A stretch of 64,000 nucleotides of DNA from Sipunculus nudus (Eukaryota > Annelida > Sipuncula > Golfingiida > Sipunculidae). A model generated the notes under the pieces. It made no database searches. It was given only the letters and a program-made list of their open reading frames with translations, and had not been told where the DNA came from. A program made the translations under genes and the position numbers. Where the stretch lies: the NCBI GenBank assembly GCA_026874595.1, contig CM049306.1, forward strand, positions 29,875,519 through 29,939,518, read 5' to 3'. Below are positions 11,981 through 53,981 of the stretch, piece after piece. Positions within the stretch are counted from its first letter, which is position 1, and every line of letters begins with the position of its first letter.

Positions 11981-12036
11981 ATGCCAGCACAGCCAGCACC
12001 CACCCCCATGGACCGCCATGACCCAGCTGCCATGCC
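11981..12036 (+). CDS. Candidate alternative first coding exon (1a) of LIM-domain-binding factor gene
   Basis: A short GC-rich island in AT-rich surroundings. The ATG at 11981 has A at -3 and opens 18 codons plus two bases, MPAQPAPTPMDRHDPAAM-(CC), ending at a GTATGT donor at 12037. An in-frame TGA at 11927-11929 blocks upstream extension unless an acceptor at 11903 (TTTGGTTACAG) removes it. The two leftover bases fit the internal acceptor of the LDB exon at 53906: CC+G gives Pro, then RHTPYM. Vertebrate LDB1 also has a Pro-rich leader with PTPM before RHTPY, as I recall it, which supports the call. Alternatively it could be a chance GC-rich frame. It has the same strand as the LDB exon and lies 41.9 kb upstream of it. 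Confidence 0.5.
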
Positions 12037-12200
12037 GTATGTATTTCTACTGTATTGCATTCGTATCTCTTGCATTATATAATATACATGCATGGATTAT
12101 TTCTAGGATTAGAACTAAAAATTACAGTGCTTTGATATACCATGGTACAGGGTTAAATTATATTGGTATCACCAGATGTCATTGTTCCCATGTGATGATA

Positions 12201-12791
12201 CAGTGAAACCTGTGTTATGAGACCACCCATTGGACTGGCCAAAAGTGGTCTCAATTCATTGGTTGTCTTATAAGACAGGTCCAGTACCAAGGTGAATGCT
12301 TTTAATTCACCCAAGGAGGGTCTTAATGGTGCCAGGTAAAAATGGCTGAGAAAATAGCAGCTTAGGTAAAAGTTATTAGGAAATTAGTTACAATGTGAAA
12401 TCATAACTTGGTACTGGTTGAAGTGAATGAGCAGATGTTGAGTTTTTGGTGAGTAGTGAATGAGTAGATATTGAATTACAGCAGCCTCACAAGTAAAGAA
12501 TCTAAATTTCAGTCTCATAAATCTGACTTAATCATTTTTATCTGTATATATATAAATATACATGTGTATAACACTGGCAAACATTGGAGGACAACAGTAG
12601 ACTAAGATAGGGTTGATGATGGCGGTAGAATAATATGTATAAAGCAATATTGCTTTCATTTTCCAAATTTGAAATTTAATCCCTGTTTCTGTCATTTTCA
12701 ATTTTGCCATTTTTACCTCGGCCATTTTTACCTTTTTCTTAATAGACAGGTGGTCTTATAAGACAGATTGTCTTTCAGACAGTTTCCATTG
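12201..12791. mobile_element. Inverted-repeat DNA element (MITE-like), probable TA target
   Basis: The left end after TA is CAGTGAAACCTGTGTTATGA followed by GACCACC. The right end carries GGTGGTCTTATAAGACAG and then GTTTCCATTG, the diverged inverse. Ends of this style are known from Tc/pogo-related elements, but the superfamily is not certain. It has no transposase. Confidence 0.55.
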
Positions 12792-13139
12792 TCATGTTTC
12801 ATCATCCAGTGGGAAGCAATATCTGACTTTTCATAACAGTGACTCAAGATATGTATGTTAAAATCATTGGTCAGAAATGAGCTGAACATCTTCTGATTGG
12901 CTGATTGTTTAGAAATGAATTTGATGAGAGGAAGTCAGGTAAATTTTCTAGACACCAAAAAGTAAAATTGTCCAAGCTATTTACAGGGCTCAACATTAAA
13001 TTTGGAAAGAACTTGCCCAGTTTGGCAAGCAGCATCTAGCTTTTACTGACCCTGTATTAGTTTTTACTTGTCTTACAAAAAACAGTGACCACAGCCATGA
13101 ACATAATACCATACAAAAAATATGTTCAAATTTTTTGTT
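12792..13139. other. Non-coding stretch
   Basis: Nothing recognised between the two mobile elements. Confidence 0.5.
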
Positions 13140-15376
13140 ATGCCCCCGCCACAAAGTGGCCGGGGCATATAGTTTTACCCATGTCCGTCATTCCGTCATT
13201 CCGTCATTCCGAAATCAAACAGTTGTACGGACTTTTTTTCGCAATGCCTGCAGATATTGGCTTGATTTTTGGTGTGTGGGCAGATAATGACCAGTTACAG
13301 ATCGAGTTCGCGTTTTGTCCCGGTTGACCTTCTTTAGACCGTTTTACGGCTCCTAAACTTAGAAAATTTCATGAAAAATAGAAATTTTCATGACAAATAC
13401 ACATGTACGGCCTTTTTTCGCAATGCCTGCAGATATTGGCCTGATTTTTGGTGTGTGGGCAGATAATGACCAGTTACAGATCGAGTTCGCATTTCGTCCC
13501 GGTTGACCTTCTTTAGACCGTTTTACGGCTCCTAAACTTAGAAAATTTCATGAAAAATAGAAATTTTCATGACAAATACACATGTACAGATTTTTTTTCG
13601 CAATGCCTGCAGATATTGGCCTGATTTTTGGTGTGTGGGCAGATAATGACCAGTTACAGATCGAGTTTGCGTTTTGTCCCGGTTTACCTATTTTTGACCG
13701 TTTTACGGCTCCTAAACTTAGAAAATTTCATGAAAAATAGAAATTTTCATGACAAATACACATGTACGGCCTTTTTTCGCAATGCCTGCAGATATTGGCC
13801 TGATTTTTGGTGTGTGGGCAGATAATGACCAGTTACAGATCGAGTTTGCGTTTTGTCCCGGTTGACCTACTTTTGACCGTTTTACGGCTCCTAAACTTAG
13901 AAAATTTCATGAAAAATAGAAATTTTCATGACAAATACACATGTACGGCCTTTTTTCGCAATGCCTGCAGATATTGGCCTGATTTTTGGTGTGTAGGCAG
14001 ATAATGACCAGTTACAGATCGAGTTTGTGTTTTGTCCCGGTTCACCTATTTTTGACCGTTTTACGGCTCCTAAACTTAGAAAATTTCATGAAAAATAGAA
14101 AATTTCATGACAAATACACATGTACAGACTTTTTTTGGCAATGCCTGCAAATATTGGCCTGATTTTTTGTGTGTGGTTGGATAATGACCAGTTACAGATT
14201 GAGTTTGCGTTTCGTCCCGGTTGACCTACTTTTGACTGTTTTACGGCTCCTAAACTTAGAAAAATTCATGAAAAATAGAAATTTTCATGACAAATACACA
14301 TGTACAGCTGTTTTTAGCCCTCAGCTCATAGGCTGATGGGCTATTGTCATCACCCAAGCTGTCCGTCTGTCCATCTGTCTGTCCAGTGTCTGTCCGTCCG
14401 TCCGTCCGTTCCGCGTCTGTTAACTTTTACCTTGTGAGTGGGATATCTCTAAAAGGAATCAACGTTTTAATTTTATTTCATCAGTGAAGATGTATATCGA
14501 TAAAATCTCGGTCAAGTTCGAAGATGGGTGACCTTGACCCATTTTTCTACATTTTAGAGCTGATAATAGAAAAACACCCAGAAGTTTATATCTCAGGAAC
14601 CATTGTGTGGATTTTCACAAAACTTACAATGATCATTGGGACTGATGGTCTGTATGTGCTGCACAATTTTGGTGGTGCCACCTGCAATTTCTGATTTTTT
14701 AAATGAAATTTTATCGGATTTTTTCAATTTTGGCCTTTTGTGCAGGATATCTCCAAAGGTATTCAACACAGGAACTTCATTCCTCAGTGCTATTGCATTA
14801 TATTTACAAAATCTTGGTCAAGTTCAAAGATGGGTGATCTTGACCTACTTTTCAATATCACAGAGCTTAGTATAGAAAAAAACTTAGGAGCTTATTTCTC
14901 AGGAAGCATTTGGTGGATTGTTATGAAACATGGTATATACCTCTCAAATTTAAATTTATAAATGATTATCAACTTTTGCTCATATTCTAGTTTCGCAATA
15001 CAATGCTTACAGATACTGGCCTAATGTTAGGTCTGTGGGTGCATAATGACCACTTACAGATCGAGTTCACGTTTCGTCCCAGTTAACCTATTTTTCACCA
15101 TATGACAGATCCTGAACATAGAAAATTTCATGAAAGACAGAAATTTTCATGAAAAATGCACATATATGGACTTTTTTTCACAATGCCTGCAGATACTGGC
15201 TTGATTTTTGGTGTGTTGCTTGATAATGACCCTTTACAGATCGAGTTTGCATTTTGCCCTTGTTGACCTACTTTTGACCATACAACACTTCCTGAACTTA
15301 AAAAATTTTACAAAATTTAACAAATGTTTCTAATTTGCCCCAGGCGGGGGCATTCGTGTCATTCCGACACATCTAG
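13140..15376 (+). mobile_element. Helitron-like element, family I, with about 179-bp tandem units
   Basis: It begins after TT with ATGCCCCCGCCAC-AAA-GTGG..., a hairpin with a stem of about 12 bp, followed by a TCATTCCG tract. It then has several tandem units of about 179 bp; two successive copies start 179 bp apart at 13628 and 13807. The 3' end contains GGCGGGGGCAT (inverse of the 5' start), the hairpin GTGTC-ATTCC-GACAC and a final CTAG followed by TT. A family II element sits inside at 14316-14990. Short recurrent + frames are repeat artefacts. Confidence 0.85.
14316..14990 (+). mobile_element. Helitron-like element, family II, nested in the family I element
   Basis: It interrupts a tandem unit of the host element in a T tract. 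The left border is T followed by AGCCCTCAGC, and the right border is CTAG followed by TTTCGCAAT, the continuation of the unit. A long (GTCC/GTCT)n tract follows the 5' hairpin. The 3' subterminal repeat seen in the copy at 6214-6958 is lost here, though the terminal hairpin remnant and CTAG remain. Confidence 0.85.
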
Positions 15377-17229
15377 TTTGATAAATATGTCTCTCTTTAT
15401 TATTTGTGCAGGTAAATGTACAGGTGATTAAAGATTTAAAGGCATTATAAATTTGATTCCTTTTCTCTGAGAAAGAAAATGGCTAACTAAAGATCAGTAT
15501 TGACTCAGGTTTTTGGATGAAGGCTTATGTTGAACCAAGTTTCCCAGTTAGGCAACTGAAAGGTGACTTTTTGTTGCCCTACTATCATTTTCTGGAACTT
15601 TTACATACCCTATGCAAAGGGTCAGACATTAATCTTAATGTTCACAATGTTATTGTGGTGTATCATTTTTACCAAAAAGATTTTTTCAGTTTGCTGATAT
15701 GCAGAGTTATGCAGACAAACAAATACTATTTTCAATTACATGTTTTCAGAGATGTTAACAGAATACAGTAGATTTTATAAAATTAAAAGATAGCAGTTTT
15801 TGTCAAGCATTTGAGTAAATCTTGATCGACAAGCTTATAAGTTAAAACAACTGAGATGGATTGAGTCCTGTAGAGTGGAGATGAGCCCGTTAGCTGATAA
15901 GTGGTTAATCATTGAGCTGACAATGAGATACACTCACAGTATAAACACTGTGTCTGCCACCACACAAGTTCAGGGTTCGTGGTATTGATTGCCACTTGTT
16001 TTTTGTCAGGACACAGATTGTTTAAAGAGACCTAATAATATTTGATTGATTTCATGAATGCTGTATTGCTAGTATATTTCTGGCGTCTTTTCCTATAATG
16101 GGATTTAAAATTTTGAATTTAATATAGTGCTTGAATAGTAATTATATACATTTTAAGAAAGAATATGTTAGGATTGATCAGGTATATTAATCAGTCTTTC
16201 TATTAGTAAAAGTTAATTTCGATGATGACATGTTCACCAAGTTTTATGAAAGTAATTCACGTGCGTTGAATATTTATGGTAAATTGCAAACTGTGCTGAT
16301 GGTAGAACTGTTAGAGCAGTAGTAATTGTTTATGTAAATAAAATATGTAAAAACACTTTACTGAGCCTGGATTGGCATAAATGAAAAAGTAATTGTATAT
16401 TTGATTTTGCCTTTGAACTGAGAGCTTCCCAGTGAGAGAGACATAGCCATGGTAACTGCATATTGGTACATCAAGTGTAACTGTTCATTCAAGGAAAAAA
16501 AAAACTACTGAAAATCCCTGATATTTATGGTAAATCCATCAAATAATTTTTTAAGGATGATTCAAGTTGCAACTAATGGTCTAACTTATCATGGGCATGT
16601 ATGAAGGAAGTTCTTTTTAGCAGTGTATTATTCATATGGAAGCACTTTCAGTTCATCTAGACATAGATAGATGGCGCTCCCTCTCCCAGCCCACAACATT
16701 TATCCAGACAGCTATTATTTTTTATATTGCTTTTGTTTGGTGGTTGGATCTGATTTCTCTACTTAATTGCATTAAACTAATTTAGGCATAGGAGGCAAAC
16801 CACTGAATACAAAAGGATTGGAATGTCCATAGGCTCTTGCCTTAAAAACTGTTCTCACTTGTGAATCAGTCTTGTGCCAGCAAATCAGTTCTGTTTTTTA
16901 TTTGGTCTCAAATATTACTCATTTAAGGCTTTTTTGTGTTAATTTATAGGAAATATTACTGTAGATGAAATCTTGTCAGTATGAAATCCCTTGTGCAAGG
17001 CAGATAATAGAGTGTTCTCTTTGTGTGATTGTTCTTATGTTTTTGTACTGAATAAACGTGTTGCTTAAATCAGCAGGAGACCTACTCAGAAAAAATGTAG
17101 CAATTCTGTTCACAATAGAAGTGGAAATTCAGTATTCTGTTTGGTTTTACAAGTAGGGGCTGTAGATCATAAGCATGTTGATCATTAACAGAATCTTCAT
17201 TCAGTATGAGTCTGTAATTTAATAGAGTA
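15377..17229. other. Non-coding stretch
   Basis: Unique AT-rich sequence. The 84-codon + frame at 15517 resembles nothing I recognise and has no splice context. I see nothing else. Confidence 0.5.
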
Positions 17230-18117
17230 ATGACCGTCTTGAGATTATTTTATTCACTACACATCCCGTGCTATCTCTCTCCAGCTGCTTGGATGCCATC
17301 ACGGGGAAATAATATTTCATGGTACAGGATATGCAGAGCCACTGACAAAGGCTGCAGGTCAACTGGTTTCATGGCCAGGAAAGGAAAACTTTTTCGACGT
17401 TATTTAGTCCCAGTTTTATCTGGCAGATGAATTAATCTGGTGGGCTTTGTCAGAGTGCTATATGACAGCATGCTTTTATATACGTCAGCAATATCTTATC
17501 TGTAGTGCCTCATAAGCTTACGTTTCGTGCAGATATTGCCAACTTCCACGCAGCCAGAAAGGGTTCCCCCAATCACATTTGTCACCAAGATTGGATTTAA
17601 TGATCTTGACCCAACTGCATGCCTGAATGTTTCATTAGTGCCGGGAAGTTTACTACAGAGGAGATTGTTATTTGCCAGAGTGTCGTCCTGCGAATCATTA
17701 CTTGGGCAGAGGGACTCGCATATGAAAATTGCATACTCGACCAGTAAATATGGGATACGCAGAGCCGTTTTCATGACTGTCATGAAGGCTGATTTTTATG
17801 CACAAATTGCCTCTCTCACCTCCGTAAAACCAGCACAGCTGTCACTCAATTTATTGGTTTCCATGGCAACATGACTCTTGGAAGGTGGGTGTCAGAACAA
17901 TGAGCTATCCGGGTAGAGGGCTCAGATCTGATCAGTAAACATTGATAACCACTCAGCAACTCGCTGGCTCGCGAGCAAATCCCTATCAGTTTTCATTCAC
18001 TCCCAGACTGAAATCAGTATTCGAGGAACTCTCAACAAATGACACAGGGTGTGAGGTTCCCTGGATACTGACTGACACACACAGACTGCTGCCGACATTC
18101 ACTTCCTAATTTCATCC
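17230..18117 (+). promoter_or_regulatory. Candidate promoter/enhancer block upstream of exon 1b
   Basis: This is the longest unique, GC- and CpG-richer block in the first 28 kb. It contains a 14-bp RFX-type X-box at 17857-17870 and leads directly into candidate exon 1b. The overlapping frames on both strands (17496-17874) look accidental. The function is inferred from composition and position. Confidence 0.35.
17857..17870. promoter_or_regulatory. RFX X-box-like site
   Basis: GTTTCCATGGCAAC differs by one base from the symmetric X-box GTTGCCATGGCAAC; the right half is perfect. Confidence 0.5.
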
Positions 18118-18152
18118 ATGCTGTTGCTGGCCAGCCAAGAGAACGGCAACCT
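18118..18152 (+). CDS. Candidate alternative first coding exon (1b) of LIM-domain-binding factor gene
   Basis: The ATG at 18118 opens 11 codons plus two bases, MLLLASQENGN-(CT), followed by a perfect GTAAGT donor at 18153. An in-frame TGA at 18073-18075 with no later ATG fixes this start. The spare CT plus the G at 53906 gives Leu and continues into RHTPYMGQ in frame, the same phase as exon 1a. It sits at the downstream edge of the unique GC-richer block that could be its promoter. Weak points are its short length, poor start context (T at -3), T at the last exon base and no homology I can name. Confidence 0.35.
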
Positions 18153-18911
18153 GTAAGTCTGCTTGTTGTTTACAATGCTTGCATGCTGCGTGTATCAGGT
18201 CTTATTCATTGGACATTTAAGCAATCAGGCAGGCCACAGACGTTTGATTGGAATATTATACCCTCGTTCCATCTCAGCCCCATCAGTCAGAACCAGGGAG
18301 TGATGCGTAAAATTGTTTCACCTATGTATCGTATTGGATATACATACTTACTAGCTGGAAGGCTGTGAGGTGAGCTTTATGACTTTTTATCCTTTCACCA
18401 TTTGCATTTTTTTTTCCCATAAGCTTCAGGCAGTTTTACTCAGTCTGTTATTAGTTTAGGGCCAAGGGGCCTCGTTTACCTACTGGGCTAACTTTCCTGT
18501 AACAAGTGTCTCTGTTTCTCTCATCCTCTGGTTCCTCTCCCTCTTTTTGCATCTAGAGAAATGTTACTCCTGTGTCAGTTATGACTGAGAGGTCATGGCT
18601 TGTATATGGTCTAGATGGTGACTGGATAAGCAAGTCGCTTTTTGATTAAAATAAATTTGTTTACAATAACGTACTGAATCATACTCCTCTGTTGGATGTT
18701 AATATAATTTGTTATAAAATTTTGAAAACTTTTCATGAACTCGTAGATGCCATGTGTCACAGACCATATAAAGTCTTCATTAATGTATATCCTTACTCTT
18801 CATATGCTTTGGTCACTTGAGGCTGCATGAGTTCAACTTTATGACAGTTTGTATCAAATTTACATTTACATCTAATCTTTCACTAATTAAAGGCTGGATA
18901 CAAGTTTTAGG
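18153..18911. other. Non-coding stretch
   Basis: Nothing recognised. The left border of the family III block at about 18912 is abrupt. Confidence 0.5.
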
Positions 18912-21151
18912 AAGACCTAGGAATCCAAAATTCGGCATAATGTTAGATGTCAGATGTCCCCAAGATCTCCTACCAAGCCAAAAACTGAGTCTTTGCGACT
19001 TCATTCCTTTGAGAAATTAAGGAAAAACCTCAATTTTTTATTAAAAACCTATTTTCACACTTCAGGACTGCTTTTATCAAAACCACTCATCTGTTTTTCC
19101 TCATATTTACCATAATTATTCCTCTATATAGTTCCTATGTACATGCCAGAAATTATGTCTGTATTATATCAATTTAAAAAGTTATGGGCCCAAACATAAT
19201 GCATTGTGTAAAAAATCAGGAAAGATATTTGATCACTTAACACAAAATTTGTTTAAGCTATAAAATTTTTTTCCAGTAAGATAACTTTAATTAATCAAAA
19301 TTAAATTGTATACCCAAAATTAGATCAAAATCTTTTAAATTTTTTAAAATATTAACAAAAATAAAAAATTGGTACCTTAAATTTTGCCAAACTTTGACCA
19401 TGGCACGTTTTTTTCCTGTAAGTACTGTGGATTTAATTTTCACAGCATGTTTTTTTTTAGCATTTTGTCTGTAAACACCAAAAATTTGAAAACCAGTTGC
19501 TCAAAAACTGTAGATTTTATTCAAGTTTTCAAGCACCATGTAACATATTGTTTACATGAAGCTAGTGTCATGCAGTTTGCAAGTGCTCAGCTCCCCAGCT
19601 TCAGCTCTCAGTTCCTAAAATGTGGCATACAATTAGATGTCTCAAAAATCCCCTACCATGCCAAGAATTTGGTCACTAGGACTTAATACCTTCGAGGTAT
19701 TAATGAAAAACTTCATTTTCCATTAAAAACCCATTGTTACACTTCAAGACTGCCTAATATCAAAACCACTGATCTGACTTTAATCATATATAATATACAT
19801 ATTTTTCTATACATTCTCTATGCACATGCCAGAAATGATGTCAGTAATTGTTTTAAGTTATGGGCCCAAACATAATGCACTTTGTAAAAAATCAAGAAAT
19901 ATATTTACTCCCTTAACAAGGAGATTGCTGAAGCTAGAGATTTTTTTGCCAGGGATGTAACATCATTTAATCAAGATTCAATTGAATACCCAAAATTAGT
20001 TCTGAATTTTTCAAATTTTATAAGTTATTAGTATAAATATAAAATTAGTACCTTAAATTTTGCTCAACTTTGACCATGGCATGTTTGTTTACTGTGAGCA
20101 ATGTTGATATAATTTTCCTGTCATGCACACATAAGAATTTCAGCTTTTTAGTTTAGAAAGCTGAAAGAAATTGGCCAAAAATTGTAGCTTTTATTAATGT
20201 TATGAGACCATGTCAGACCTTGGCCCTCTCCAGCCCCTCTTGAGTCACCTGTATGTTGACCTTGTTGAACTTTCAGCAAATTATGCATGCTTGAAGTGAG
20301 GCATAAACTGGGGCTCCAGGCAGCTCATTATATAATGGCCAGCCACAGTTGTTCCAGGTGTCCAGCCCAACTCACCTAGAAGTTTTAACCAACAACATAA
20401 CAATAAACAATAAAATAAAAAATTTTTATTGGTTTTTAATAACAAATTAAAGAAAAATAGAAAAGGTATTTGTTAGTTTATAATAACAGGAAATTAACTT
20501 GCAGTTACTGATGATATAAGAATCTTGTATCGATTGATAGAATGTCATGTATTCCAAATAACACCATGCAGTCACCTATGGTATTTTTCAGTTCAATTTT
20601 AATGATAAAAAGGTAAATCATGTTATTCATTACTAATGATTGGGGATTATATGAAGAAAATAAATGATAGACAAAGATGCAGTTGATAATATTAATCTAG
20701 ATTCCTACTGTGTCTAGTGTGTACATTGATGTGAAATTAGTCCAAAATGAATATATATTACATTTATTTTTTTAAATATAAATAAAAGCCATGAAACCAG
20801 GTACTTATGATCATTATTTAAATGTGTTAATTTTGTATATTCTGGATTCTCTACATCATTGTTTGGTGAAAACTGAATAAATACCAGACATGGTGCGAAT
20901 AATTTGCAATTGTATTTAATTCTGACTATGAATATGTACTCCATTATAAACTTTCTTGCATAAAGAAAGAGAATTCAGGTAAAAATGAAAGTATATGAAT
21001 ACCAGTGCAAATACTTTCAAAATGTATTCATGAATGCATTCATGAATATATTCTTTAATAATCATTTCAGTTATATTTCATTTTAAAAAATCATAAGATT
21101 CTCTTATTATTTTTAATAAAATTTATATTTGGGACAATATTTGTAATTTTT

Positions 21152-23994: not shown

Positions 23995-24987
23995 ATGCCC
24001 CCGCCACAAAGTGGCCGGGGCATATAGTTTTTTACCCATGTCCGTCCTTCCTTCCTTCCCAAATCAAACAGTTGTACTGACTTTTTTTCGCAATGCCTGC
24101 AGATATTGGCCTGATTTTTGGTGTGTGGGCAGATATAGACCAGTTACAGATCGAGTTCGCGTTTCGTCCTGGTTGACCTTCTTTTGACCGTTTTACGGCT
24201 CCTGAACATAGAAAATTTCATGAAAAATATGAAATTTCATGACAAATACACATGTACGGACTTTTTTTCGCAATGCCTGCAGATATTGGCCTGATTTTTC
24301 GTGTGTGGGCAGATATTGACAAGTTACAGATCGAGTTCACGTTTTGTCCCAGTTCACCTACTTTTGACCGTTTGACGGTGCTCTAACATAGAAAATTTCA
24401 TAAAAAAGTGCACATGTATGGACTTTTTTTCGCAGTGCTTGCAGATGCGGGCCTGATTTTTGGTGTGTAGGCAGAAAATGACCAGTTACAGATCGAGTTC
24501 TTGTTTTGTCCCAGTTGACCTACCTTTGACCATTTGACTGCTCCTGAACATAGAAAGTTTCATGAAAAATAGAAATTTTCATAACAAATGCATATGTACT
24601 GACTTTTTTTCCTCAATGCCTGCAGATACCACCCTGATTTTTTATGTGTGGGCAGATAATGACAGTTACAGATCGAGTTCGCGTTTCGTCCCGGTTAACC
24701 TACTTTTGATTGTTTTACGGCTCCTAAACATAGAAAATTTTATGAAAGACAGAAATTTTTATAGAAAATGCACATGTATGGACTTTTTTTCACAATGCCT
24801 GCATATACTGGCATGATTTTTGGTGTGTTGCTTGATAATGACCTGTTACAGATCGAGTTTGCATTTTACCCTTGTTGACCTACTTTTGACCATACGACAC
24901 CTCCTAAACTTAAAAATTTTTCAAAATTTTACAAATGTTTCTAATTTGCCCCAGGCAGGGGCATTCGTGTCGTTCCGACACATCTAG
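23995..24987 (+). mobile_element. Helitron-like element, family I, nested in copy G (copy B)
   Basis: The 5' hairpin is ATGCCCCCGCCAC-AAA, with a GTCCTTCC tract and about five diverged ~180-bp units. The end is GTGTC-GTTCC-GACAC then CTAG. It splits a family III tail whose intact version (CATATTTTTTATCATA) is at about 25640, so both borders are exact to within the T tract. Confidence 0.9.
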
Positions 24988-25032
24988 TTTATCATATATA
25001 ACAGCTGAGCGCCGTGACCCATAGGTCCCTTG

Positions 25033-29599: not shown

Positions 29600-29684
29600 A
29601 TTCATATTCTGTGGTCCACTTCATTTTCATGAGGTTAGAATTTCCAATTTTCGTTTTACATTGTTTTGCGATGGTTCCATTTTT

Positions 29685-41983: not shown

Positions 41984-43230
41984 CCGCCGCAGAGATTTCT
42001 TTTGGACACAATAACTCAAAAAATATTTCACGGATCTTTACCAAACTTGGAATATGTATAGATATGGGTGAGAGGACGACGCCTATTTAAAATGAGGTCA
42101 TGACCTCAACTAGGAGAGTGACCTTGACCTTGAATAGGTTCAATTTTGGGGAAAATCACACAAATTCTTAAATATCTCAAGAAAACTTGCATGGATTGAT
42201 CCCAAAATCAAGTTGATCGAAGATCATGGATAGGGTTGTCATGTTCCAGAAACTGGTGGCGCCACCTATTATTCTTTACTTGTTTTCATGCCGTTTAATA
42301 TCCCCAAAATTGCTACTTGACAGTACTGTGAGCATTATAAGTCAAAAACTAATGGACAGATTTCTTTCATATTATGCAAATACATAGATATGGGTTATGG
42401 GATGATGTTTATTTAAATTGGGGTCATGACCTTTCCTATGAGAGTGGCCTTGACCTTGAATATTGCCATATATGGTGAAAATCACACAAAATCATTAATT
42501 TCTCAATAAGGGATGCATGCATTGGTCCAAAAATCAACTTGACCGAAGATCTTGGATAGTAATGTCATGTACCGGAAACAGGTGGCGCCACCTGTTATTC
42601 TTTTACTTGTTTTCGTGCCGTTTAATACCCCATCATTGCCACTTAACAGTACATTTATAACCTGTGAGCATTATAAGTCAAAAACTAATGGACAGATTTC
42701 TTTCATATTATGCATATACATAGACATGGGTTATGGGATGATGTATATATAAATTGGGGTCATGACCTTTCCTATTAGAGTGGCCTTGACCTTGAATATT
42801 GCCATATATGGTGAAAAATTACACAAAATCATTAATATCTCAATAAGGGATGCTTGCATTGGTCCAAAAATCAACATATTCGAAGATCTTGGAAAGTATT
42901 GTCATGTACCGGAAACAGGTGGCGCCACCTGTTATTCTTTTACTTGTTTTGTGCCGTTTAATACCCCATCATTGCCATTTATCAGTACTGTGAGCATTAT
43001 AAGTCAAAAACTAATGGATAGATTTCTTGCATATACATAGACATGGGTTAGGGGATGATGTATATTGAAATTTGGATCATGACCTTTTCTATGAGAATGA
43101 CCTTTTCTATGAGTGTGGTCTGATATTAATTGTTGCTGAAGATGGGGGGCCTATTCTTAAAGGGGGGGGGGGGGGGGGGGATTAATTGTCTGGCGATACT
43201 ATGGCACCTGCGGTGCCAAGAAATATCTAG
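41984..43230 (+). mobile_element. Helitron-like element, family IV, 5'-truncated
   Basis: It starts at the CCGCCGC tract, then about three units of ~330 bp, each with GACCTTGACCTTGAAT or GCCTTGACCTTGAAT and the palindrome GGTGGCGCCACC (42255, 42581, 42918). The tail has G19 (43162-43180), TTGTCTGGCGATAC, the hairpin GGCACC-TGC-GGTGCC and a terminal CTAG before TT. The copy at 55503 supplies the missing 5' hairpin. Confidence 0.8.
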
Positions 43231-43750
43231 TTGTTATTAGTTTTAATAATATTACCTGAGACACACCTGCTGTAAGCAAAAAGGTAATCAGGTAAAATAA
43301 AAAAAATGTTGTGATATTAGGGTAACGTGAAAGTGGAATAAGATCATTTATACTGTAATGATTAAAGTGTATGAGTAGGACTTAGCCTGGTGCTGAAGGC
43401 TTTGGATTTCTCAGCTGAAGGTCTGCTTTGGCCTCAATGGCATAATGATGAAATGTGGTTAGAACCTCTGAGATAAGCTGTAGTGTCGATAGATTATGAC
43501 TTTTGGATTATTCCTAACACTGTGCTATAAAAGCTGAATTCCAGAAGGCAAAATAATAACATAATTTTCTTATCATTAGGAAACCTTCATCTTCATTCAA
43601 TACACTGTGCCACAACAGGACATGACCTTATCTTAGAAAACAATAATAATACCAGTGTTTCCACATACACCGAGGCAAACATGATCACTATGGATTGTGA
43701 CTCACTCAGTATAGTGATTCAGACAAATGGTGCCTTCTAGTACACTCTTA
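43231..43750. other. Non-coding stretch
   Basis: Nothing recognised. Confidence 0.5.
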
Positions 43751-43756
43751 TGCAGT

Positions 43757-44945
43757 GGTTATATGCTGCATTCTACTCTTGCTTAACCAGTGCTTGCTTT
43801 AGCAGCATTTGCTGGGTTTGACCACCATACAGCATGTGCAGGGATAATTATGTAATCAGACCATTGAGCGGTGTATTTCACATTGTGCATCCGAATCCAG
43901 GTTTGGAACCTGCAGCGCCCTGCTCTTATTGGTCTGATTGGATCGTTCTCCCTGTTAGTGTTGGGACGATACAGGTTTTTGATATCATGATAATTATTCA
44001 AATTTTATCGCGATATACCGTGATATCGCGATATATTTAATTATATATAATGGCAATAATAAGCCATCAATAATGATATTTATAACAACCACCTTTAAAG
44101 TTTTGACTTTATACAAGGGGTTAAGTATTAATATCATTTATATCTATTGTGCCAGTACCACAGAATGACTCATTAAGTGATGTAAGTTGCATGAAGGTCC
44201 TGCAGGTGTGCAAGCTTGAGGCGCGGGAAGTCCTGCCCCCATCGTCGAATCACGCTTGTCAGAACTTTCCATCAGTTTCCTATAGCTACATTAGAGCCGG
44301 AGAATCCCGGCGAATTTTCGGAGAGCGTGTCATACCAATCATGGCTAAATATACCATCCTAATTTTTTATGGCAAAATATGCAACCCGTATGGAATGTTC
44401 GATTCAGTTGTGACACTTTTATGTTGACATTTTCGTTCCATGTAATAAAAGCATAAATATGTGTATTTATTGCTCTTCAATTATAATGTTATTTTCTCCT
44501 GTAATTCTCAAGCTTTTGTCCTCTCTGATTCATCCTGCTACTTCCGGACATTTCCGGACTAATCCCGAAGTCTGTAAGCACACTTTTCCACCTACACACG
44601 GACATTTCCGACTAATCCCGAAGTCTGTAAGTACACGGTTCCACCCACGCGCGTGTATTCAGATACATGTGGTTTATAAAAATAAATGTGATTCTTTGAA
44701 ATAAATTTATTTTGAACCTAAAGGGCTTGCTTGTGAACCAAAATCGTGAACAAAAAATGATATCGTGGTATCGCGATAATAGGAAAGTTGACGGTATGAT
44801 AACCGTAGCTGTCAGATATCATGATAATACCGTATACCGGTAACCGTCCCAACCCTACTCCCTGTAAGTGCCAGTCACCTGGTGGTGAAACCCAGCAAAA
44901 TCCTGCTAAAGTGTAAATGAGAATGCAGCATATAATCAACACGCA
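43757..44945. mobile_element. Foldback (inverted-repeat) element, interrupted by a hAT element
   Basis: The left arm (from TTATATGCTGCATTCT to GCTGGGTTTGACCACC) is repeated inverted at the right end (GGTGGTGAAACCCAGC to AGAATGCAGCATATAA). Removing 43956-44857 leaves an element of about 290 bp. No transposase; the superfamily is not determined. Confidence 0.65.
43956..44857. mobile_element. hAT non-autonomous element with perfect 8-bp target duplication
   Basis: The ends are TAGTGTTGGGACG and CGTCCCAACCCTA (one mismatch when inverted). They are flanked by CTCCCTGT at 43948-43955 and 44858-44865. Subterminal ATCGCGATA and ATCATGATAAT words repeat near both ends. It is 902 bp long, and the short internal frames show no transposase. 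Confidence 0.9.
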
Positions 44946-47353
44946 AGCAGTGTAACCCTCCGACTCCAGAGAGATTTCTTAACACAACATCAAGAAGAGA
45001 TTTTGTTTGCCTATGCTTAAAATGTGATTACAGCAAAACTAGCTTTAAGATGGCAGAGTTGCTTTTCAGGGCAATTTATTTGTGAAAACTTGTAACTTAT
45101 TTATGGGATGAGGAAATTTCTTCATATGGCAACACCAATATAGTGTGTAAATACTATATATATATGCACTATCTGTGAATGCTTTGTTACTCTTTTGTTC
45201 CCAGCATTCCTTAACCTGTTAGTTTCCTTTTTGACTCTTTTTGGCCAAAAATTTTAAATGTAATCAAAGGATGGCAAGGTACTGGGTATCATAAAGACCC
45301 GTCTCTTGATTCTGTATTGAATTGGAATAGAAGTATCATAAAAATGCTTAAATTTGAATTTAATTAGACTTATTGGAATATTGACCCCAGGTCTGATATC
45401 TGTATAGAAAAGACTCGAAATCAAGTACCACATTGTGCAAATGGAAACACTAGGTTAGAGATGACTCAAGATTGATACCTGACTTGTACATGATTGTGAT
45501 GATGATACTCAACATCACAGTATCTCTTAAAAAAAAAACATGATTTTTTTTCATAGTGTAATCACAGCTCTTGTACAAATACAGATTTTGTAGATTTTAA
45601 ACCAATGACAAGATTGAATCCAATGTAAGAAAGTTAGAAATTTGTAAGAGACAGGTTCATAAGACTGGTGAATCAATAAGAAATAAAATCAAAGTGGTCT
45701 TGTCTGATGATACACAGTATGTAGCCTTAATCACTAAATTCTTATTCAGAAAGAACGTTTGGATCTATCAATGTAAAAAATAAAGTTTAGAATTTAAACA
45801 CAGTTGACAATATAACCTCCTTTCTATACCTTGATGAAAGTCATTAAGGACTATGCATATGACATATGGGCATAATTTATGATAGTTATATGCAAGTATA
45901 TAAGTACATGTGTACTCATTTCATCACTAAAACACACTTTGCAGACTTTTCAACTATCATATTCAATGTTACAGTCACATACACTTACATACATTGAGCA
46001 ACATCACTTTCCATACAGGTCACATGCATAATTTGTAAGAAATCAGTCCCAATTTTTTATGAGAAATTACAAAGCAAGATTCCAGCAACTCTAGACTATG
46101 AACAACCTGGATTAGGTGTAGCAGTGTAAAAAGTCTGCAATATTTTTTGCATAATGATATCAGATAACATATGCCAGCCAGGTTTGCTTGAGACTTTAAA
46201 TCAAACTATTGAAGATCATGACAGAAATAGTCAAACACAGTTAGTTTTAAACCAAGAGTGCTCCTTAGTTTTACAGGTAGTAGCTTAACACAAGGTTCTT
46301 TTATTTGCAGTTTTGACTGTATACAAGCTTGAAGGTATGTTAAAATACTCTGCATTAATAATCATTATATCTCATCTGGTTTTACAGGTCATAGGTGGAT
46401 ACTAGGCACCTCCAGCCTTATTTACGGGACAGGTTTTACAACAGGAGTGTATTTTCGGCATGGTTAGCTCCGTTCTCTTGAGCAGTCTCCTGCTTTGGTT
46501 GATTGAGCATTGTTAAATGTCATACTCGAGACTTTTTTGTACCTTGTCACTATCGACCTGCCTGGCCTATTTGTCATCAAATATATGACTAGAGCTGTTG
46601 AATACTCATAATAATATATGAATATTCATATTAAACTATGAAATTAATGAATATTCATATCAGCATTTTAATCAGATTGCACTGTTTGCACTGTAAAGCA
46701 TTCTTTGAGCCCTGTCTATATAAACATGTAAAATAAATCAGTTGTAAATTTACATATTTTGTTGCATTTTATCAATACTGATAGTATTGCTCTTTCAGTG
46801 CTGTTTTCCAAATTGGTTATGTTTGAACCAACAGATACCATGTTGATGAAGAGATATTATAAGAAATGTTTCAAAACCTATATTTAATTCTGCAATGATG
46901 TTTTAAATTTTATTTAACAATAAATTTAAATTTAGTGTATGTTAACTTTTGTAATAGAGAAGAAGGTTGAAAGCTTGGATCCGGACTGGCAAATAATCCA
47001 GATTGTAAATCGGTTTACTCTGTCCATACTAGGCCACAATCTGCATAAGTTCTGATAACTGTTGTCTGCTTGAAAAGTGGTCCCAAGTAGTTTCTTTAGT
47101 CTGGATTACAGTAAATTGGATCCTAGTATGTACAGGCTAATCTGTTTTCAGTCTGAGTGAGGGCAGTTTAGCTACCACTTTACCCAATCCTTCCTGGAAA
47201 TATCACTTTTTAAAGGCACATTAAACTGTGGAGTGCAAACTCACATTTGATCAAATAAACTGTATTAGGCTTTTGTAAAGTGAACTACAGTGCAGATGCA
47301 AAGCATACTACTTCCAGACTAAAGCAGACCATTTTGGCATAATTGTATGTTTT
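44946..47353. other. Non-coding stretch
   Basis: No supported gene. A small cluster of TGAATATTCATA palindromes lies at about 46600-46665, possibly a decayed short element. 46940-47340 is unique, with two TAATCC-type words. I see nothing else. Confidence 0.45.
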
Positions 47354-48456
47354 CAGCGCCACCTGCAACCATGTTTGCTCAGTGTCCATCTGTTCGTCTG
47401 CCTTGGGTTAAAATCACTCATATCTCTGCAGTGACTAGACTAATTCACCTGAAATTCGGCATGCGTAAACATCCTGGATAGCTTTTCTGATTTTATGACA
47501 GGTGGCGCCACCTACATTCACGTTTACGCTGCAGACATCCAGGCTCATATCTCGGAAACCGTTTGATAGATCAGGAAAATTTTTTTGCACAAATGTAGCC
47601 CTTGGAGAGCTTTATAACATACACAAAAAATGGTGGCACCACCTGCAACCATGTTTGCACAGTGTCCATCTGTTCGTCTGCCTTGGGTTAAAATCACTCA
47701 TATCTCTGCAGTGACTTGACTAATACACCTGAAATTCGGCATGCGTATACATCCTGGATAGCTTATCTGATTTTATGACAGGTGGTGCCACCTACATTCA
47801 CGTTTACGCTGCAGACATCCAAGCTCATATCTCGGGAACCGTTTGACCGATTGGGCCAAAATTTTGCATGTGTATAGATCTCACATAGCTCTTCATCATA
47901 CGCAAAACTGGTGGCGCCACCTGCAGCCATTTTTGCACAGCTCCTGTCTGTTTGTCTGCTATGGGATAAAATCACTCATATGTTGGCAGTGGTTTGACAT
48001 ATGTGCCTAAAATTTTGAAGGTTTATACATCCCCGACAGCTCTCTTGATTTTATGACAGGTGGCGCCACCTGCATTCTAGTTTATGCAGCAGACATCCAA
48101 GCTCATATCTTGGGAACCGTTTGACCGATTGGGCCAAAGTTTTGCAAAACTGGTGGCGTCACCTGCAACCATTTTTGCTCAGCGTCCATCTGTTTGTCTG
48201 CCACGGGCTAAAATCACTCATATACATGTAGTGGTTTGACTTATCTGTCTTAAATTTTGCATATGTATACAACTTGGACAGCTTTCTGGATTTTGTGGTA
48301 GGGGGGGGCAACCTACATACACAATTTGGCTGCAGACATCCATGCTAATAATCAACACTCTATTTCCCCTTGCCACTCAATCCATGCCTCACTTCACCCG
48401 TTCCACTCTGATTTAGGCGGATACACTTAGTCGCTTGTCGACTACCCGTATTCTAG
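47354..48456 (+). mobile_element. Helitron-like element, family V, 5'-truncated
   Basis: Tandem units of about 285 bp, each with CATATCTC-type and GGTGGCGCCACC palindrome words (47501, 47910, 48059). The 3' end is a hairpin TAGTCG-CTTG-TCGACTA, then CCCGTATT and CTAG before TT. Short frames on both strands are repeat artefacts. Confidence 0.7.
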
Positions 48457-48510
48457 TTTGATTCAGATATAAGAGCCTAATGCAGGTATGGCCCAAAAAA
48501 AGGGCATTTT

Positions 48511-50877
48511 AGCTGAGCTAACAAAGTCATCTGAGCTATAGTTAACACTCCTTGTCCGTCGTGCTTCCTCTGTCCATCCATCTGTCCTTTTGTCTGTCTG
48601 TCTGTTAACAGGGCACAAATAGTAACCGCTTGACCTAGAAACTTCTAACTGAAAACCCATGGAGGTCCATAAAACATCTCCTTGGAAACCTGAAATTAGG
48701 TCACTGTGACCTATATTCTTCAGTACCCCCCAGAATAATTAAAAACTTAATACAAAAGCTCCAGTATCTGAACAACTAATGCATTAAATGTCATGATTCT
48801 TTCAATGCATATTGATCATGGAGTGTTCATCAATTTTTGAAGACTGGTTGCACCACTTGTATTTACCATTTTTTGCTCAGCTGTCTATAAGTCATCTGAG
48901 CTACATATGTGGTCCATTGTCCATCATCCATCCGTCCATCTGTCACTGACTATAAGTCATCTGAGCTATAGTCTTGGTCCATTGTCCACAGTCTGTCAGT
49001 CCATCCATTAGACTGGCGCGTTTTGAAACCATTAGACCTATGAATCCAAAATCTGGCATACTGTTAGATGTCCTCAAGATCTCCTACCAAACCAAAAACT
49101 GGGTCACTTCGTTCCTTTGAGAAATTAAGGAGAAACATCAATTTTCCATTAAAAAACTATTATCACTTTTCAGGACTGCCTAATATCAAAACTACAAATC
49201 TGTTTTTCTTCATATTTGCCATAAATATTCCCCTATATAGTTTCTATGTACATGTCAGAAATTTAGTCAATATTACTTGATTTATTAAAGTTACAAGCCC
49301 AAATATAATACATTTTGTAAAAAATCAGGAATGATGTTAATCATTTAACTTTTATAAGTGTTGAAGCTAGAGACTTTTTTTCAGATATATAAATTTATTT
49401 AATCAAGATTCAATTATATTTCCAAAATTAGATCTAAATTTTATAAATTTTTTAAGTTATTAGCATTAATATAAAATCAGTACCTTAAATTTTTTCCAAC
49501 TTTGACCACGACACGCTTTTTCCCCCTCTAAGTCCATTTGATTTAATTTTCACAGCAGGTACAAATAAGTAATTAATCTGTTAAATTCTAAAATTTGAAA
49601 ATAAAAGCTCAAAAGTTAGGTTAGTTATTGAAGTTTCTTTCACAGGCTCTGTTGTATTCATTTGCATTACCAGGCTGCCCACTTCTCACTGCAGCCCTGC
49701 CTAGGTAACCTTGTTTAATAGTGATGCAACACTGGTCAAGCACCCATTCTGTCACAGGTGTACAGTTATTCTCATGTCACCTCCACACCTGTGGACTGGA
49801 AACTATTGCAACTGTTCACTTTTTATAAAATTGAAAAATAAAAAGGGTTTAATTAAATAAAATAGATCTAACTGAAAAAAAATATGTAAACTGCTGAATT
49901 GTCAACAGCTTACCAAAAAGCCAACCAATAAGCATAATAATAGTAAAGATCTTGTATTCACAAACTGCCTACTTGCTTCAGTATCAACATTAGGAAACAT
50001 GGTCAAATCACAAAATATTATTTGCAAAATGTCTTCGATCATATCAACCATCCGTGGCCTATATTACCTGTTCCTTTCAGACTTTATCTCCATTTGATAT
50101 TTTAGATTTTAAACTTCAAGGTCAACCTAAGCAGAGCAAAATGACCCATGAGTCCCTTGTAATCCTTGTTTTCTCTATTTTTGAGGTTTTAGATGAAGCA
50201 TTCTGTTCTTTAACAGGGCACAAATTGTAACTGTTAGACCTAAAAACTTCTTACTGTACATTCAGGGAGGTCCTAGGCTAATCTCCTTGGAAACCTAAAT
50301 TAGGTCATGGTAACCTATATTCTGTGGGCCAAAAACATGATTTCTTGCACCCTGAAAATCAGATGGGCATAAATTGTATCTGCTACGCCTAGAATGTTTC
50401 AGTGTTACATACAGGGAAGTCTTGGGCAGTCTCCAATGAAACCTGAAATTAGGTCATGGTGACCAATATTTTGCATGCTACTAGCCAAAACATTCTTGGT
50501 GATCTTCATGGATACCAGAAATTAGGTCATGGTGACTTATATTATGGCCAAAAACATTTTAAGCACCCAGACAGTCAGACAGGGTACAAAACTTTACTGT
50601 TGGACCTAGAATCTTCTGTCTTGACATCCAGGCATGTCCTTAAAAAAATGTGCATAGTCATTATTAGCTAAGCTGACTGCATACAAATAGACTAGATTTC
50701 ATTGGAATGGCTGGACATATTATCGTGCATGAAACTTTTGCTTCGTTGATTTTGAAGAACTTTAATTGCTACAGTTGAATGGGGATACCACCTACAAAAT
50801 TTGGCATTCAGATGAAAAGAATTCCTTTTCTGAATGTCTTCCTAGTCAGCTGAGCATCATGACCCATGGGTTACATG
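48511..50877 (+). mobile_element. Helitron-like element, family III, old diverged copy (outer)
   Basis: It begins after TTTT with AGCTGAGCTAACAAAGTCAT, a decayed 5' hairpin, with a GTCC/GTCT tract. Internal ~180-bp repeats (CAGGGCACAAAT... ACCTAGAA) continue on both sides of an inner copy at 48874-50159. It ends with CAGCTGAGC, GACCCATGGGTT and ACATG before TT, a degraded form of the terminal hairpin. Confidence 0.65.
48874..50159 (+). mobile_element. Helitron-like element, family III, inner diverged copy
   Basis: The start GCTCAGCTGTCTATAAGTCA is followed by a tandem duplication of the head near 48943. The end is GACCCATGAGTC with CTTG before TA. It is shorter than copies E and F because of internal deletions. 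Confidence 0.7.
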
Positions 50878-53606
50878 TTATAAGTGTAATTCTACAAATT
50901 AAAAGTATAAGATGCCACCAATAACCAGCTAAAATGGTATGTGCTAAAATCAACATTTATCTGTTTAATTGTGTCAGTTTAAAATAACCATGGTTTAAAG
51001 ACCCTGTTAAAAAAAAAAATAATTCATGTTCATGAGACCAAAATTCTTCATTTGTCTATTCTGGTTACCAGTACTTGCAGAATTAATATTCTATGAATGA
51101 ATATCCTTGAACACAGCTAGAACCATTATTGTGCTACGGTACTGTTGCCTTTATAGTTTGTCCTGGCCAAGCAAGGACGCACATGGTTTAGTTACTGTAC
51201 TGTATAGTGTGCTGCACTGTGCTCTGTTCAATGTAGAACAGACAGCGGGTTTGGGTGTGCGTGTGACTATAACAAGCCAGGAGCTGTATGACCCACTGAG
51301 ATTTATTTCCAGCAGTCTGCTTTTCACAACTTTTTGTCATGAGATTTTGAGGGAACCTGATTATTTCATCACTGGTTTTACAGAGTTTTGTCTCCCAGGT
51401 GTATCATTATGGACAAGAGGCTCAGTGGATTATGTAAAATTGATTTAAACTCTGAAGTCTTTATGTGACATTGTGATAAATAATTCTTACAAAAAGATGT
51501 ATTGTTAAAGCTCTATTGAAATTTTTCCCTTTGAAGTGGTTTCAGCGTGGTAACTGTTCACATTTGATATCATTCATTGACTGTCTGTTTTAAATTAGAA
51601 GACCTATTTGATTTATCAAATGCTATAAATTACCAGTTTCTGTACAACTAACTGCTTATGTTTAAAACTAGATTGAGGTTGGTCCTTGTGGCAAATCAAA
51701 TATTTAGATCAAATCTATCATCACTGTTGTAAATGATAAATTAGGAATCCATCATTTATTAATTATTACATGGTATTAAGTACAAAAAATTTGAATTTTT
51801 GTAGGAAAATCTAACTGGCTTTCAAAATGGGTGAATTAATGAGAAACAGAATTCATGAATCAATTGTTTGGTGAAGTACTTTTAAAAAATAACCAAAAAG
51901 ATTTGAAAATTGTAAATGTTTGAAAATTGTATTTTTGTTTATTTTTAACATTGCATTATGTGTTGATGATGTCATGTATAATTATTGACTGTGATAACAG
52001 AGACAATATGACCATGATAGTTTGTCAGACCAAAAGTTTGGTATCACTAAATTGTTTGTGTGTTTTAGGTTTATTTTCTGGTTGCTGCAACTTGTAGGGG
52101 ACAGATTAATGGGATAAGTCACCTGGGGTCTCCCCAAAATTTCTGCACATCCTCCTGAGCACCTGATCCAGGACTGAACAGGGCCCATTCCCCTTGCCCA
52201 ACACTGAAATATTTGTTTGTTGTCATGGCAACTAGATAAAATCACTGCTCCAAAGTTCACAGTGTCACATAGTGATGCATATTTCATTCTGCTGTCTAGT
52301 TTTTCTTGAATTTACATCCTGTTTCAAGTCTAGCTGTGCAGGAGTTTTTAGCAGTATCAGTTGTACACGGACCCTTGTTTTGGGGCAAAGGCCTTTGTAA
52401 TGCCAGACTGAACTACCAAACTGGTGTATTATCACTGAGTATTCCCTATGGTAGCTGCACCGGTGAAATCGTCATGGTTTTGAACAAATTGTTAAAGAAT
52501 ATAGAGCAGTATTGATAGTATTGACCACCAGTCTCCCGGACTGGGGCACACTTGCTGCACTGGGCTTTTAAATCAATAACATAGCTAGCTGGTGGCACTC
52601 TGGTCCTTTCCAGCCGACCTGTGAATGGTCAAAAGGGCCCTTTGTATGATGCTTAGCTTATAGCTTGATATATGCACATACTCTAATATGTTTAGTGTTT
52701 ATGCCCTAGATATAAACATATCTTTCTTAGGTATACTTGACAGTTTTTTCCACAACTGGGCTGCAATACTGGTTTTATCCAACCCTCTCCCCAATGTTTA
52801 TTGCCCAGCCAACTTGTAGTCGATTCATGAATATTGATGAAACTGGCCAGTTCAAGTTAACAATAGGGGCCACAGGTGTGTATGAATAAAATATATTCTT
52901 CCATTTTCACCTTTAAATTGATATCATTAGTCCCAGCTTGGACATTGAAGGAAAAATATACTTGCTGATTGCTGGAAATGAATTAACTTCTTTACTGTAA
53001 AGTGAAAAATTGATTTATTTGGTTCACTGCACCCCTATGCTTTACAATGGTCCAAGTAACTGTATCTATTAATAGATCACCACATCAATGTAGTGCACAT
53101 GCACAGTGGTGGCAGAAAACAGTATACTAGGAGGGTACCTCATTGATTCAGTATGGACCATGTGCAATATTTAATAGTTCTCTTATAAAAAATAGTCACA
53201 TCCCTGGAGGGCCTCGCTGGTGTCACTGGGTTAGTTTGTGAGGATATTTATCACTGATCAGTACTATTTAGGTGGTATGTAAACAAACTGGGGGTGTACT
53301 GTTTGGTTCCCCCATTGCTGCACAAGACTGGATGAATGAAGTTCATCCAGGTAATTGTGAATGTTCAGGTCCAGTGGCTGGTGTTATTGTGGATATAAGG
53401 CTGTTGGACTGTGCTGCTGCTGAAAGTTACTGTTGCCACTGCTGAACACGTGTATACAGTCAGGGACTTGCACAGCATGTTGAAAATTAGATTTTCTGTG
53501 TCACTGCGGCTTATAAGCAGGTGTTGACTTCAGCAATGCCAAGAGGGTTTCTGACCACTGTGAATGGATTTATAAATTGACCAGATATTTCTGTGTGTGC
53601 ATTACA
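50878..53606. other. Unique non-coding sequence upstream of the LDB exon
   Basis: Non-repetitive. The 113-codon + frame at 51107 matches no family I know. An X-box-like site is at 52219-52232 and an E-box CACGTG at about 53446. Regulatory use is possible but unproven. Confidence 0.4.
52219..52232. promoter_or_regulatory. RFX X-box-like site
   Basis: GTTGTCATGGCAAC is one base from the symmetric X-box consensus. Confidence 0.45.
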
Positions 53607-53792
53607 GACAGGAGAAGGAACTTCATGCACGGTTGGATGAAATCGTAACCGTTTATGTGAATGATTGTATTATTATCGATACACTGAGACTTGTTATTGT
53701 ATATAACACAGATAATAGTTTATTTAAGAATACTACCCAAGAAGGGTAGTGAAGACCTTCTAGCACCGATTGTTTATATATCATAATTACCA
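53607..53792 (+). other. Probable 5' UTR or proximal promoter of the LDB exon
   Basis: An acceptor-like GTGTGTGCATTACAG ends at 53606, so an untranslated segment may begin at 53607. Alternatively the TATATAAC at 53701-53708, about 85 bp before the ATG, could be a TATA-like promoter. In-frame TAA at 53784-53786 shows the segment just before the ATG is not coding in this frame. Confidence 0.35.
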
Positions 53793-53981
53793 ATGAGTAA
53801 TTTCTCGAGCCCGATGAACCCAATGCCGATCGACACCATGCATTCCACCATGAACTCTATGAACTCTGACCCGTTTTACTCATCTCCGTTTTCACAATTT
53901 TACAGGCGTCACACACCATACATGGGTCAGCCCGATTTCCGCATCTACGAACTCAACAAGAGGCTTCAACAACGCAACGAG
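53793..53981 (+). CDS. LDB: LIM-domain-binding factor (LDB/CLIM/Chip), N-terminal exon (partial gene)
   Basis: LDB proteins are nuclear adaptors that self-associate through an N-terminal domain and bind LIM-homeodomain and LMO proteins through a C-terminal LIM-interaction domain, bridging distant enhancers and promoters. This exon encodes 63 residues: a Met/Ser/Asn-rich leader (1-25), then DPFYSSPFSQFYRRHTPYM (26-44) and RIYELNKRLQ (50-59). The middle block matches vertebrate LDB2 (DPFYSSPFGPFYRRHTPYM, from memory) almost residue for residue. The ATG at 53793 follows an in-frame TAA at 53784. The exon ends in phase 0 at GAG|GTAAGG. The next exon, expected to encode the DNLWWDAF region, is not in the window. 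Oddly, the codons for residues 27-38 form a pyrimidine tract with TTTTACAG, a likely internal acceptor at 53905/53906. LDB1-like versus LDB2-like naming is not meaningful for an invertebrate single gene. Confidence 0.93.
53869..53906 (+). promoter_or_regulatory. Internal 3' splice site within the LDB exon
   Basis: A branch-point-like CTGAC (A at 53869), an uninterrupted pyrimidine-rich stretch and ACAG at 53902-53905, with no AG between. The distance from branch A to AG is 36 nt, in the normal range. Use of this site would replace the first 37 residues with the leader of exon 1a or 1b. Confidence 0.65.

Follow-up and report, generated by a model that had tools for sequence, protein, structure and literature searches.

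Can a single invertebrate LDB (LIM-domain-binding) gene supply both of the N-termini that vertebrates divide between LDB1 and LDB2? The question is raised by a 64,000-nucleotide stretch of the genome of the annelid Sipunculus nudus (contig CM049306.1 of assembly GCA_026874595.1; the whole stretch is called the window below), for which a preliminary description proposed that three alternative starts converge on one LDB exon and that promoter choice yields LDB1-like and LDB2-like proteins. LDB proteins are described as mediating long-range enhancer-promoter contacts in development, the Wnt response and red-cell maturation (PMC6800368).

The LDB locus and the exon with its own start

The identity of the gene was assessed on the predicted protein. 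A Pfam profile search recovered the LIM_bind domain (PF01803; E 1.6e-32, 113.4 bits against a cut-off of 24.2) and the C-terminal LIM interaction domain, LID (PF17916; E 1e-11, 44.8 bits against a cut-off of 25), confirming that this is an LDB gene, and a PDB search matched LDB1 and LDB2 entries, with LDB1 6tyd covering residues 39-265 at E 3.4e-122. All eight matches from a genome search with the whole protein lay at this locus and the first exon matched only itself, in agreement with the earlier view that a single gene is involved. We conclude that this is the single LDB/Chip locus found in the genome and that the window holds the 5' part of the gene. When the 63-residue exon was used to look for LDB relatives, one scan of viral contigs gave no pattern matches and one scan of genome contigs gave 43, none of which was confirmed. 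Among markers of the animal itself, a COX1 family search gave 11 matches, of which the two inspected read as bacterial operons, and the haemocyanin family PF14830 had no match either here or in the controls and is therefore uninformative.

The exon with its own start and its flank can be divided as follows.

53793-53981, plus strand: LDB exon with its own ATG and an LDB2-type start, serving as first exon if transcription begins nearby.
53793-53905, plus strand: 5' part of this exon, coding for a peptide that ends in DPFYSSPFSQFYR when it is a first exon, and supplying the 3' end of an intron, with pyrimidine tract and AG, if an upstream exon is used.
53906-53981, plus strand: shared part, a single base followed by RHTPYMGQPDFRIYELNKRLQQRNE and a phase-0 donor.
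53608-53792, plus strand: possible 5' UTR; the acceptor at 53608 could receive a non-coding upstream exon.

Sequence evidence gives good support to the start within the exon. An in-frame TAA at 53784-53786 precedes the ATG at 53793, and the donor GAG/GTAAGG that closes the exon is equalled by few sites (3 of the 3,090 GTs in the first 54 kb, the site itself counted, are as good). A second ATG at 53850 (MNSMNSDPFYSS) aligns with the start of LDB2 (MSSTPHDPFYSS), and translation may really begin there. When the residues in front of RHTPYM, DPFYSSPFSQFYR, were compared by eye with the mammalian LDB2 antibody peptide printed in PMC8033514, 11 of 13 were identical, so that the LDB2-like half of the earlier claim stands. 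As read from its codons, the own start carries an LDB2-type N-terminus, DPFYSSPFxxFYR before RHTPYM. The gene, its frame, its single locus and the sequence of this start are thus established, and the presence of an LDB2-type start in an invertebrate LDB gene argues that this N-terminus is not a vertebrate invention, which is the firm part of our account.

Candidate upstream first exons and a possible internal acceptor

Two further starts lie tens of kilobases upstream.

11981-12036 (56 nt), plus strand: candidate first coding exon 1a, MPAQPAPTPMDRHDPAAM plus CC, with phase-2 donor GCC/GTATGT.
18118-18152 (35 nt), plus strand: candidate first coding exon 1b, MLLLASQENGN plus CT, with phase-2 donor CCT/GTAAGT.

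The coordinates, exon ends, spare bases and phases given in the preliminary description all agree with the sequence, and joining bears out its statement that the three starts (1a, 1b and the ATG at 53793) read openly into RHTPYMGQPDF: the join of 1a to 53906 gives MPAQPAPTPMDRHDPAAMP-RHTPYMGQPDF and that of 1b gives MLLLASQENGNL-RHTPYMGQPDF. Continued through seven further exons, the splice sites of which were placed by hand, all three run to one common stop and predict proteins of 403 (1a), 396 (1b) and 422 (own ATG) residues. The DNA of each candidate exon has one match in the genome. By a weighted scoring of splice sites, the donor of 1a is weak (it is matched or outscored by 500 of the 3,090 GTs in the first 54 kb) and that of 1b is equalled or exceeded by 66 of the same 3,090, the site itself being counted in both cases.

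The 53.8 kb upstream of the exon contain 927 candidates of 14-150 nt that run from an ATG to a phase-2 GT; therefore agreement of phase alone means little. We also scanned 94 kb for exons of 29-110 nt with an ATG at the start and a phase-2 donor, and ranked the resulting 1,136 candidates by the sum of the donor score and a codon-use score trained on the shared exons. It can be seen that 1b came first (10.0) and 1a fourth (7.5), the two other candidates above 1a both lying upstream of the window. Among five control sets taken from other phases or the other strand, three held a candidate above 10.0 and four held one above 7.5, although these controls are partly dependent: the best minus-strand phase-0 candidate (window position 12075, descending) is antisense to 1a, and the best plus-strand phase-0 and phase-1 candidates share one site 25 kb upstream of the window. 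Exon 1a is also the second of the listed 86-nt GC peaks in 144 kb, tied with the first at 0.663, at a width that was chosen to fit 1a. We regard it as plausible that 1a and 1b are upstream first coding exons.

The sequence around the starts was also inspected. An acceptor-like TTACAG is present at 11898-11903, upstream of 1a. The CpG ratio over the 300 nt upstream is 0.60 for 1a, 0.43 for 1b and 0.61 for 53793, values also reached in 24, 68 and 22, respectively, of 436 background windows, and these flanks do not clearly separate the three starts. The ratio reaches 1.06 at 53601-54000, a value equalled by some coding exons of the LDB gene. For both reasons the CpG ratio was rejected as a promoter mark.

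For the comparison we used an LDB1 N-terminus whose final residues, PTYLEPGIG, agree with PDB 6ptl. Exon 1a has PTPM in common with it. This resemblance does not exceed what chance would give: 1a ranked fifth of 927 by local alignment and, with the alignment anchored at the join, 19th of 1,136, its anchored score of 9 lying below the best score in each of 30 shuffles (13 to 28). No similarity between 1b and the LDB1 N-terminus was detected by the same measures (671st of 927 and 240th of 1,136). The proposal that the upstream exons encode LDB1-like N-termini was therefore not upheld. That vertebrate LDB1 and LDB2 differ before RHTPY was, by contrast, borne out by a figure legend in PMC8033514, which calls their N-terminal regions highly diverged, and by the LDB1 chain in 6ptl, where PTYLEPGIG precedes RHTPYG. 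This chain differs from the LDB2-type peptide up to the residue at which an acceptor at 53906 would cut, a coincidence that suggests an old splice boundary.

The candidate acceptor itself consists of an AG at 53904-53905 followed by G and CGT CAC ACA CCA. Its score of 3.91 is the highest among the 26 AGs in 53500-53981, the second being that of the acceptor at 53608 (2.22), and it is the sole one that is in phase, open and credibly strong. It falls within the span of six other scored acceptors of the LDB gene (-0.06 to 9.43), and 78 of the 2,883 AGs in the first 54 kb, itself included, score at least as high. When the overlapping codons were recoded synonymously, an acceptor as strong arose in 14% of recodings with uniform codons and in 27% with the gene's codons, the latter drawn from exon stretches that include the exon at 53793-53981 and about four intron codons; among recodings that retained the AG at 53904-53905, 42-76% were as strong as the real one. 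No selection for splicing at 53906 was found by this recoding. We conclude that the acceptor arises mostly as a side effect of coding for the peptide (the SPFSQFYR codons); its strength is set by the peptide, and its existence is therefore no evidence of selection for splicing.

Readings of the upstream region

We think it probable that the exon is a hybrid, first in some transcripts and internal in others, with 1a, 1b or both spliced to 53906. Transcription beginning just upstream of the exon would lead to translation from 53793 or 53850 and to the LDB2-type form, ending in DPFYSSPFSQFYR-RHTPY. In transcripts begun tens of kilobases upstream, 1a, 1b or both would instead serve as short phase-2 first exons spliced to 53906; the LDB2-type peptide would then be removed with the intron, and a different short N-terminus would take its place. 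The dimerisation domain, the basic stretch and the LID, all of which lie from RHTPY onward, would be identical in every form. It is the use of 53906, the involvement of both upstream exons and the choice of promoter that we infer here.

A potential explanation that would not need to invoke splicing at 53906 is that the own start alone is used and the gene makes one LDB2-type protein, 1a, 1b and the acceptor having arisen by chance in AT-rich sequence. The origin of the acceptor in the SPFSQFYR codons, the 927 phase-2 candidates and the control candidates that reach the scores of 1a and 1b all speak for it, whereas the divergence of vertebrate LDB1 and LDB2 at the cut residue and the marked GC peak at 1a speak against it; on balance we consider it unlikely, although the strongest of the alternatives.

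Less likely again is that the acceptor is real and its partner differs, with 1a or 1b being wrong, belonging to a longer chain of exons, or giving way to an exon upstream of the window, a reading that overlaps with the hybrid exon. Exon 1a could be internal because the acceptor-like TTACAG precedes it; its donor is weak, and the scan was confined to exons of 29-110 nt that start with ATG. However, no other phase-2 candidate in the 94 kb scored above 1b, and those above 1a other than 1b were the two outside the window.

Least probable, by a little, is that upstream promoters feed non-coding exons into the acceptor near 53608, so that the 5' UTR alone varies and the protein is always LDB2-type, which could coexist with hybrid use and would fit both the second rank of that acceptor and an in-frame TAA that would hold the start at or after 53793, but 53906 is the stronger acceptor and is in phase with 1a and 1b.

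If the hybrid-exon reading is extended to the origin of the vertebrate pair, the common bilaterian ancestor would have had one LDB gene whose LDB2-type SPFxxFYR codons also provided upstream first exons with a pyrimidine tract and 3' splice site. Once the vertebrate duplications had taken place, use as a first exon would have persisted in LDB2 and use by splicing in LDB1, their N-terminal difference being a frozen promoter choice. We offer this only tentatively. What this genome contributes to such a partition of isoforms after duplication is one locus with an LDB2-type start and no accepted LDB1-type exon. Were both kinds of N-terminus made by one unduplicated gene through promoter choice, the difference would be older than the duplicates and could be tested within a single invertebrate gene.

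Comparison with known systems

Splicing is known to produce LDB forms without the LID (Tran et al., 2006, as cited in PMC8033514). Among titles and the opening parts of abstracts, in a literature that mostly leaves out subscription papers, we found no study of alternative first exons in LDB1, LDB2, Chip or ldb-1.

The own-start form resembles vertebrate LDB2 (CLIM1) in its N-terminus, DPFYSSPFxxFYR-RHTPYM, and in the LDB core and, with translation from the ATG at 53793, would carry 19 more residues upstream. Vertebrate LDB1 (CLIM2/NLI) shares the core from RHTPY onward and has another N-terminus before it, as 1a or 1b would give, although that N-terminus has no detectable similarity to either.

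The proposed arrangement is of a known kind. Hybrid internal-terminal exons, as described by Fiszbein and colleagues (PMC10256964), are first exons in some transcripts and internal in others, which is the dual use suggested here; the difference, as far as that description goes, is that internal use of the LDB exon would cut within its coding part, and that the LDB case is proposed from genome sequence. The split suggested for LDB1 and LDB2 likewise resembles that of zebrafish mitf, where the isoforms of one gene were divided between two duplicates (Altschmied et al., 2002, as cited in PMC5306129). According to that account, the mitf case concerns expressed isoforms whose mRNAs have different 3' ends, whereas the LDB split would be read from a single genome set beside two vertebrate N-termini.

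The LDB gene and its locus

When LDB1 and LDB2 were used as tblastn queries against the window and 40 kb downstream, most remaining LDB exons were recovered in order on the + strand, and one further exon was found by reading the sequence.

LDB coding exons that follow the shared exon (window scale continued past 64000; tblastn or sequence reading, splice sites placed by hand)
78908-79013, + strand, first coding exon after the shared exon
85677-85849, + strand, second
89806-89928, + strand, third
91444-91524, + strand, fourth
92794-92917, + strand, fifth
93573-93709, + strand, sixth
95061-95396, + strand, seventh

The reading frame closes at one stop, in exon 95061-95396, and the predicted protein matches Pfam LIM_bind and LID as well as solved LDB1 and LDB2 chains. 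All eight genome matches of the 422-aa protein were exons of this gene, and the first exon matched only itself. A second LDB copy is unlikely rather than impossible, because parts of the genome could be missing from the assembly and the search scores best candidates only; the single-locus setting is solid.

The assembly seems to include bacterial contigs. By reading, C60 (stretch L006) carries an operon for a heme-copper oxidase whose subunit I is 577 aa long, and C123 (L007) a cbb3-type operon. Eight more matches of near-equal score lie on seven other contigs, as might be expected if a symbiont were present as several strains.

Tandem repeats were also seen. About eight copies of a 67-bp unit span the start of LDB exon 2 and the sequence immediately before it, at 4408-4940 of the downstream stretch L003 (window scale 78408-78940). 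With variations, they duplicate the exon 2 acceptor and first ~30 coding bases (TTTCAG, then GAACAAAATGATAA...), the final copy continuing into the real exon, and the array looks like a set of decoy splice acceptors within a conserved gene. Joining 53981 to the exon 2 start (L003 4908) gives NEEQNDNLWW, one residue longer than TEECDNLWW of LDB1, and the extra residue sits at the exon edge formed by this array. Units of 277-289 bp that resemble one another and abound in AGGTCAAGGTCAC-like words form tandem arrays in or near introns of the gene (window 8457-9627 and 56089-58218; L003 6221-8136). Two arrays ~10 kb apart within the proposed long intron (window 13224-14305 and 24073-24919) are built from nearly the same unit of 179-180 bp (TGTACGG..CTTTTTT..CGCAATGCCTGCAG...).

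The exon's own start and the candidate internal acceptor

PMC8033514 prints the LDB2 antibody peptide as MSSTPHDPFYSSPFGPFYRRHTPYMVQPEY, then an added C. The window's MNSMNSDPFYSSPFSQFYRRHTPYMGQPDF is identical to it at 21 of 30 positions, ungapped, and at 11 of 13 from the D of DPFY through the R before RHTPY (both counted by eye). Such a reading would hardly arise by chance from an intron end. On the latter identity, the LDB2-like N-terminus proposed in the preliminary description is upheld for the exon's own start, and we regard an LDB2-type start in this gene as solid; if the source is an invertebrate, this N-terminus existed outside vertebrates. The LDB2 start aligns to ATG 53850, so translation may begin at that codon and not at ATG 53793.

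The coordinates, spare bases and joins of exons 1a (11981-12036) and 1b (18118-18152) to 53906 that had been described were all reproduced, implying introns of 41.9 kb and 35.8 kb. Among the 26 AGs in 53500-53981, that at 53906 has the top acceptor score. Twelve are in phase with a phase-2 exon; eight of these lie upstream of an in-frame TAA (53784-53786) that reading would hit, and those at 53798, 53810 and 53963 score -11.5 to -7.5. A phase-2 exon with an open frame would therefore join at 53906.

The acceptor region consists of pyrimidine-rich codons and TAC AGG, encoding SPFSQFYR. When the exon was recoded synonymously, an acceptor at least as strong appeared in 14% (uniform codons) to 27% (the gene's codon use) of recodings, and in 42% to 76% of those retaining the AG. 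The acceptor is thus mostly a free by-product of peptide coding, and its strength is no independent evidence of its use. What points to use, by inference, is the vertebrate comparison: LDB1 reads PTYLEPGIG-RHTPYGNQ in PDB 6ptl and LDB2 SPFGPFYR-RHTPYMVQ in PMC8033514, so that the two part where this acceptor would cut. We consider 53793-53981 likely to be a hybrid exon.

Candidate upstream exons 1a and 1b

Each candidate has one genome match as DNA, in a search that passes over simple and very common words. At a width of 86 nt, picked to suit 1a, 11952-12037 is second among GC peaks over 144 kb, tied with the first at 0.663; many other top peaks are, by reading, poly-C/G runs or repeat-like. 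Across all six reading frames of 94 kb, the only instance of PTPM, a motif picked post hoc, is that in 1a. When 1,136 phase-2 candidates in 94 kb were scored by donor and by codon preferences from the shared exons, 1b ranked first (10.0) and 1a fourth (7.5). In five control sets of 850 to 1,125 candidates each (+ strand, phases 0 and 1; - strand, phases 0, 1 and 2), the top scores were 9.4, 11.4, 11.6, 5.8 and 11.7, above 1b in three and above 1a in four. The 1a donor, GCC/GTATGT, is weak, being equalled or bettered by 500 of 3,090 GTs; for 1b the figure is 66.

The 300-nt stretches preceding 1a, 1b and 53793 have CpG ratios of 0.60, 0.43 and 0.61 (median 0.21), with 24, 68 and 22 of 436 background windows as high. 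These ratios mildly favour 1a and 53793 as starts and decide nothing. Overall, 1a is a plausible upstream exon, somewhat on the probable side; 1b is also plausible, at a more tentative level.

Likeness of 1a to the LDB1 N-terminus beyond chance was not found by local alignment (rank 5 of 927, score 24 against a top of 25), and anchored at the join it ranked 19 of 1,136 with a score of 9, whereas the top scores of 30 block shuffles lay between 13 and 28. Sequence therefore gives no support to the proposed LDB1-like N-terminus; of the two types suggested for this one invertebrate gene, it is the LDB2-type start that stands.

Comparison with known systems

No work on alternative LDB first exons was listed by text searches of the literature covered. 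Exons used both first and internally form a known class, as described in PMC10256964, to which exon 53793-53981 may belong. Dividing the isoforms of a gene between its duplicates is likewise an established model, exemplified by mitf (PMC5306129), and may apply to LDB1 and LDB2. Should this be borne out, LDB would join both as a new and instructive case.
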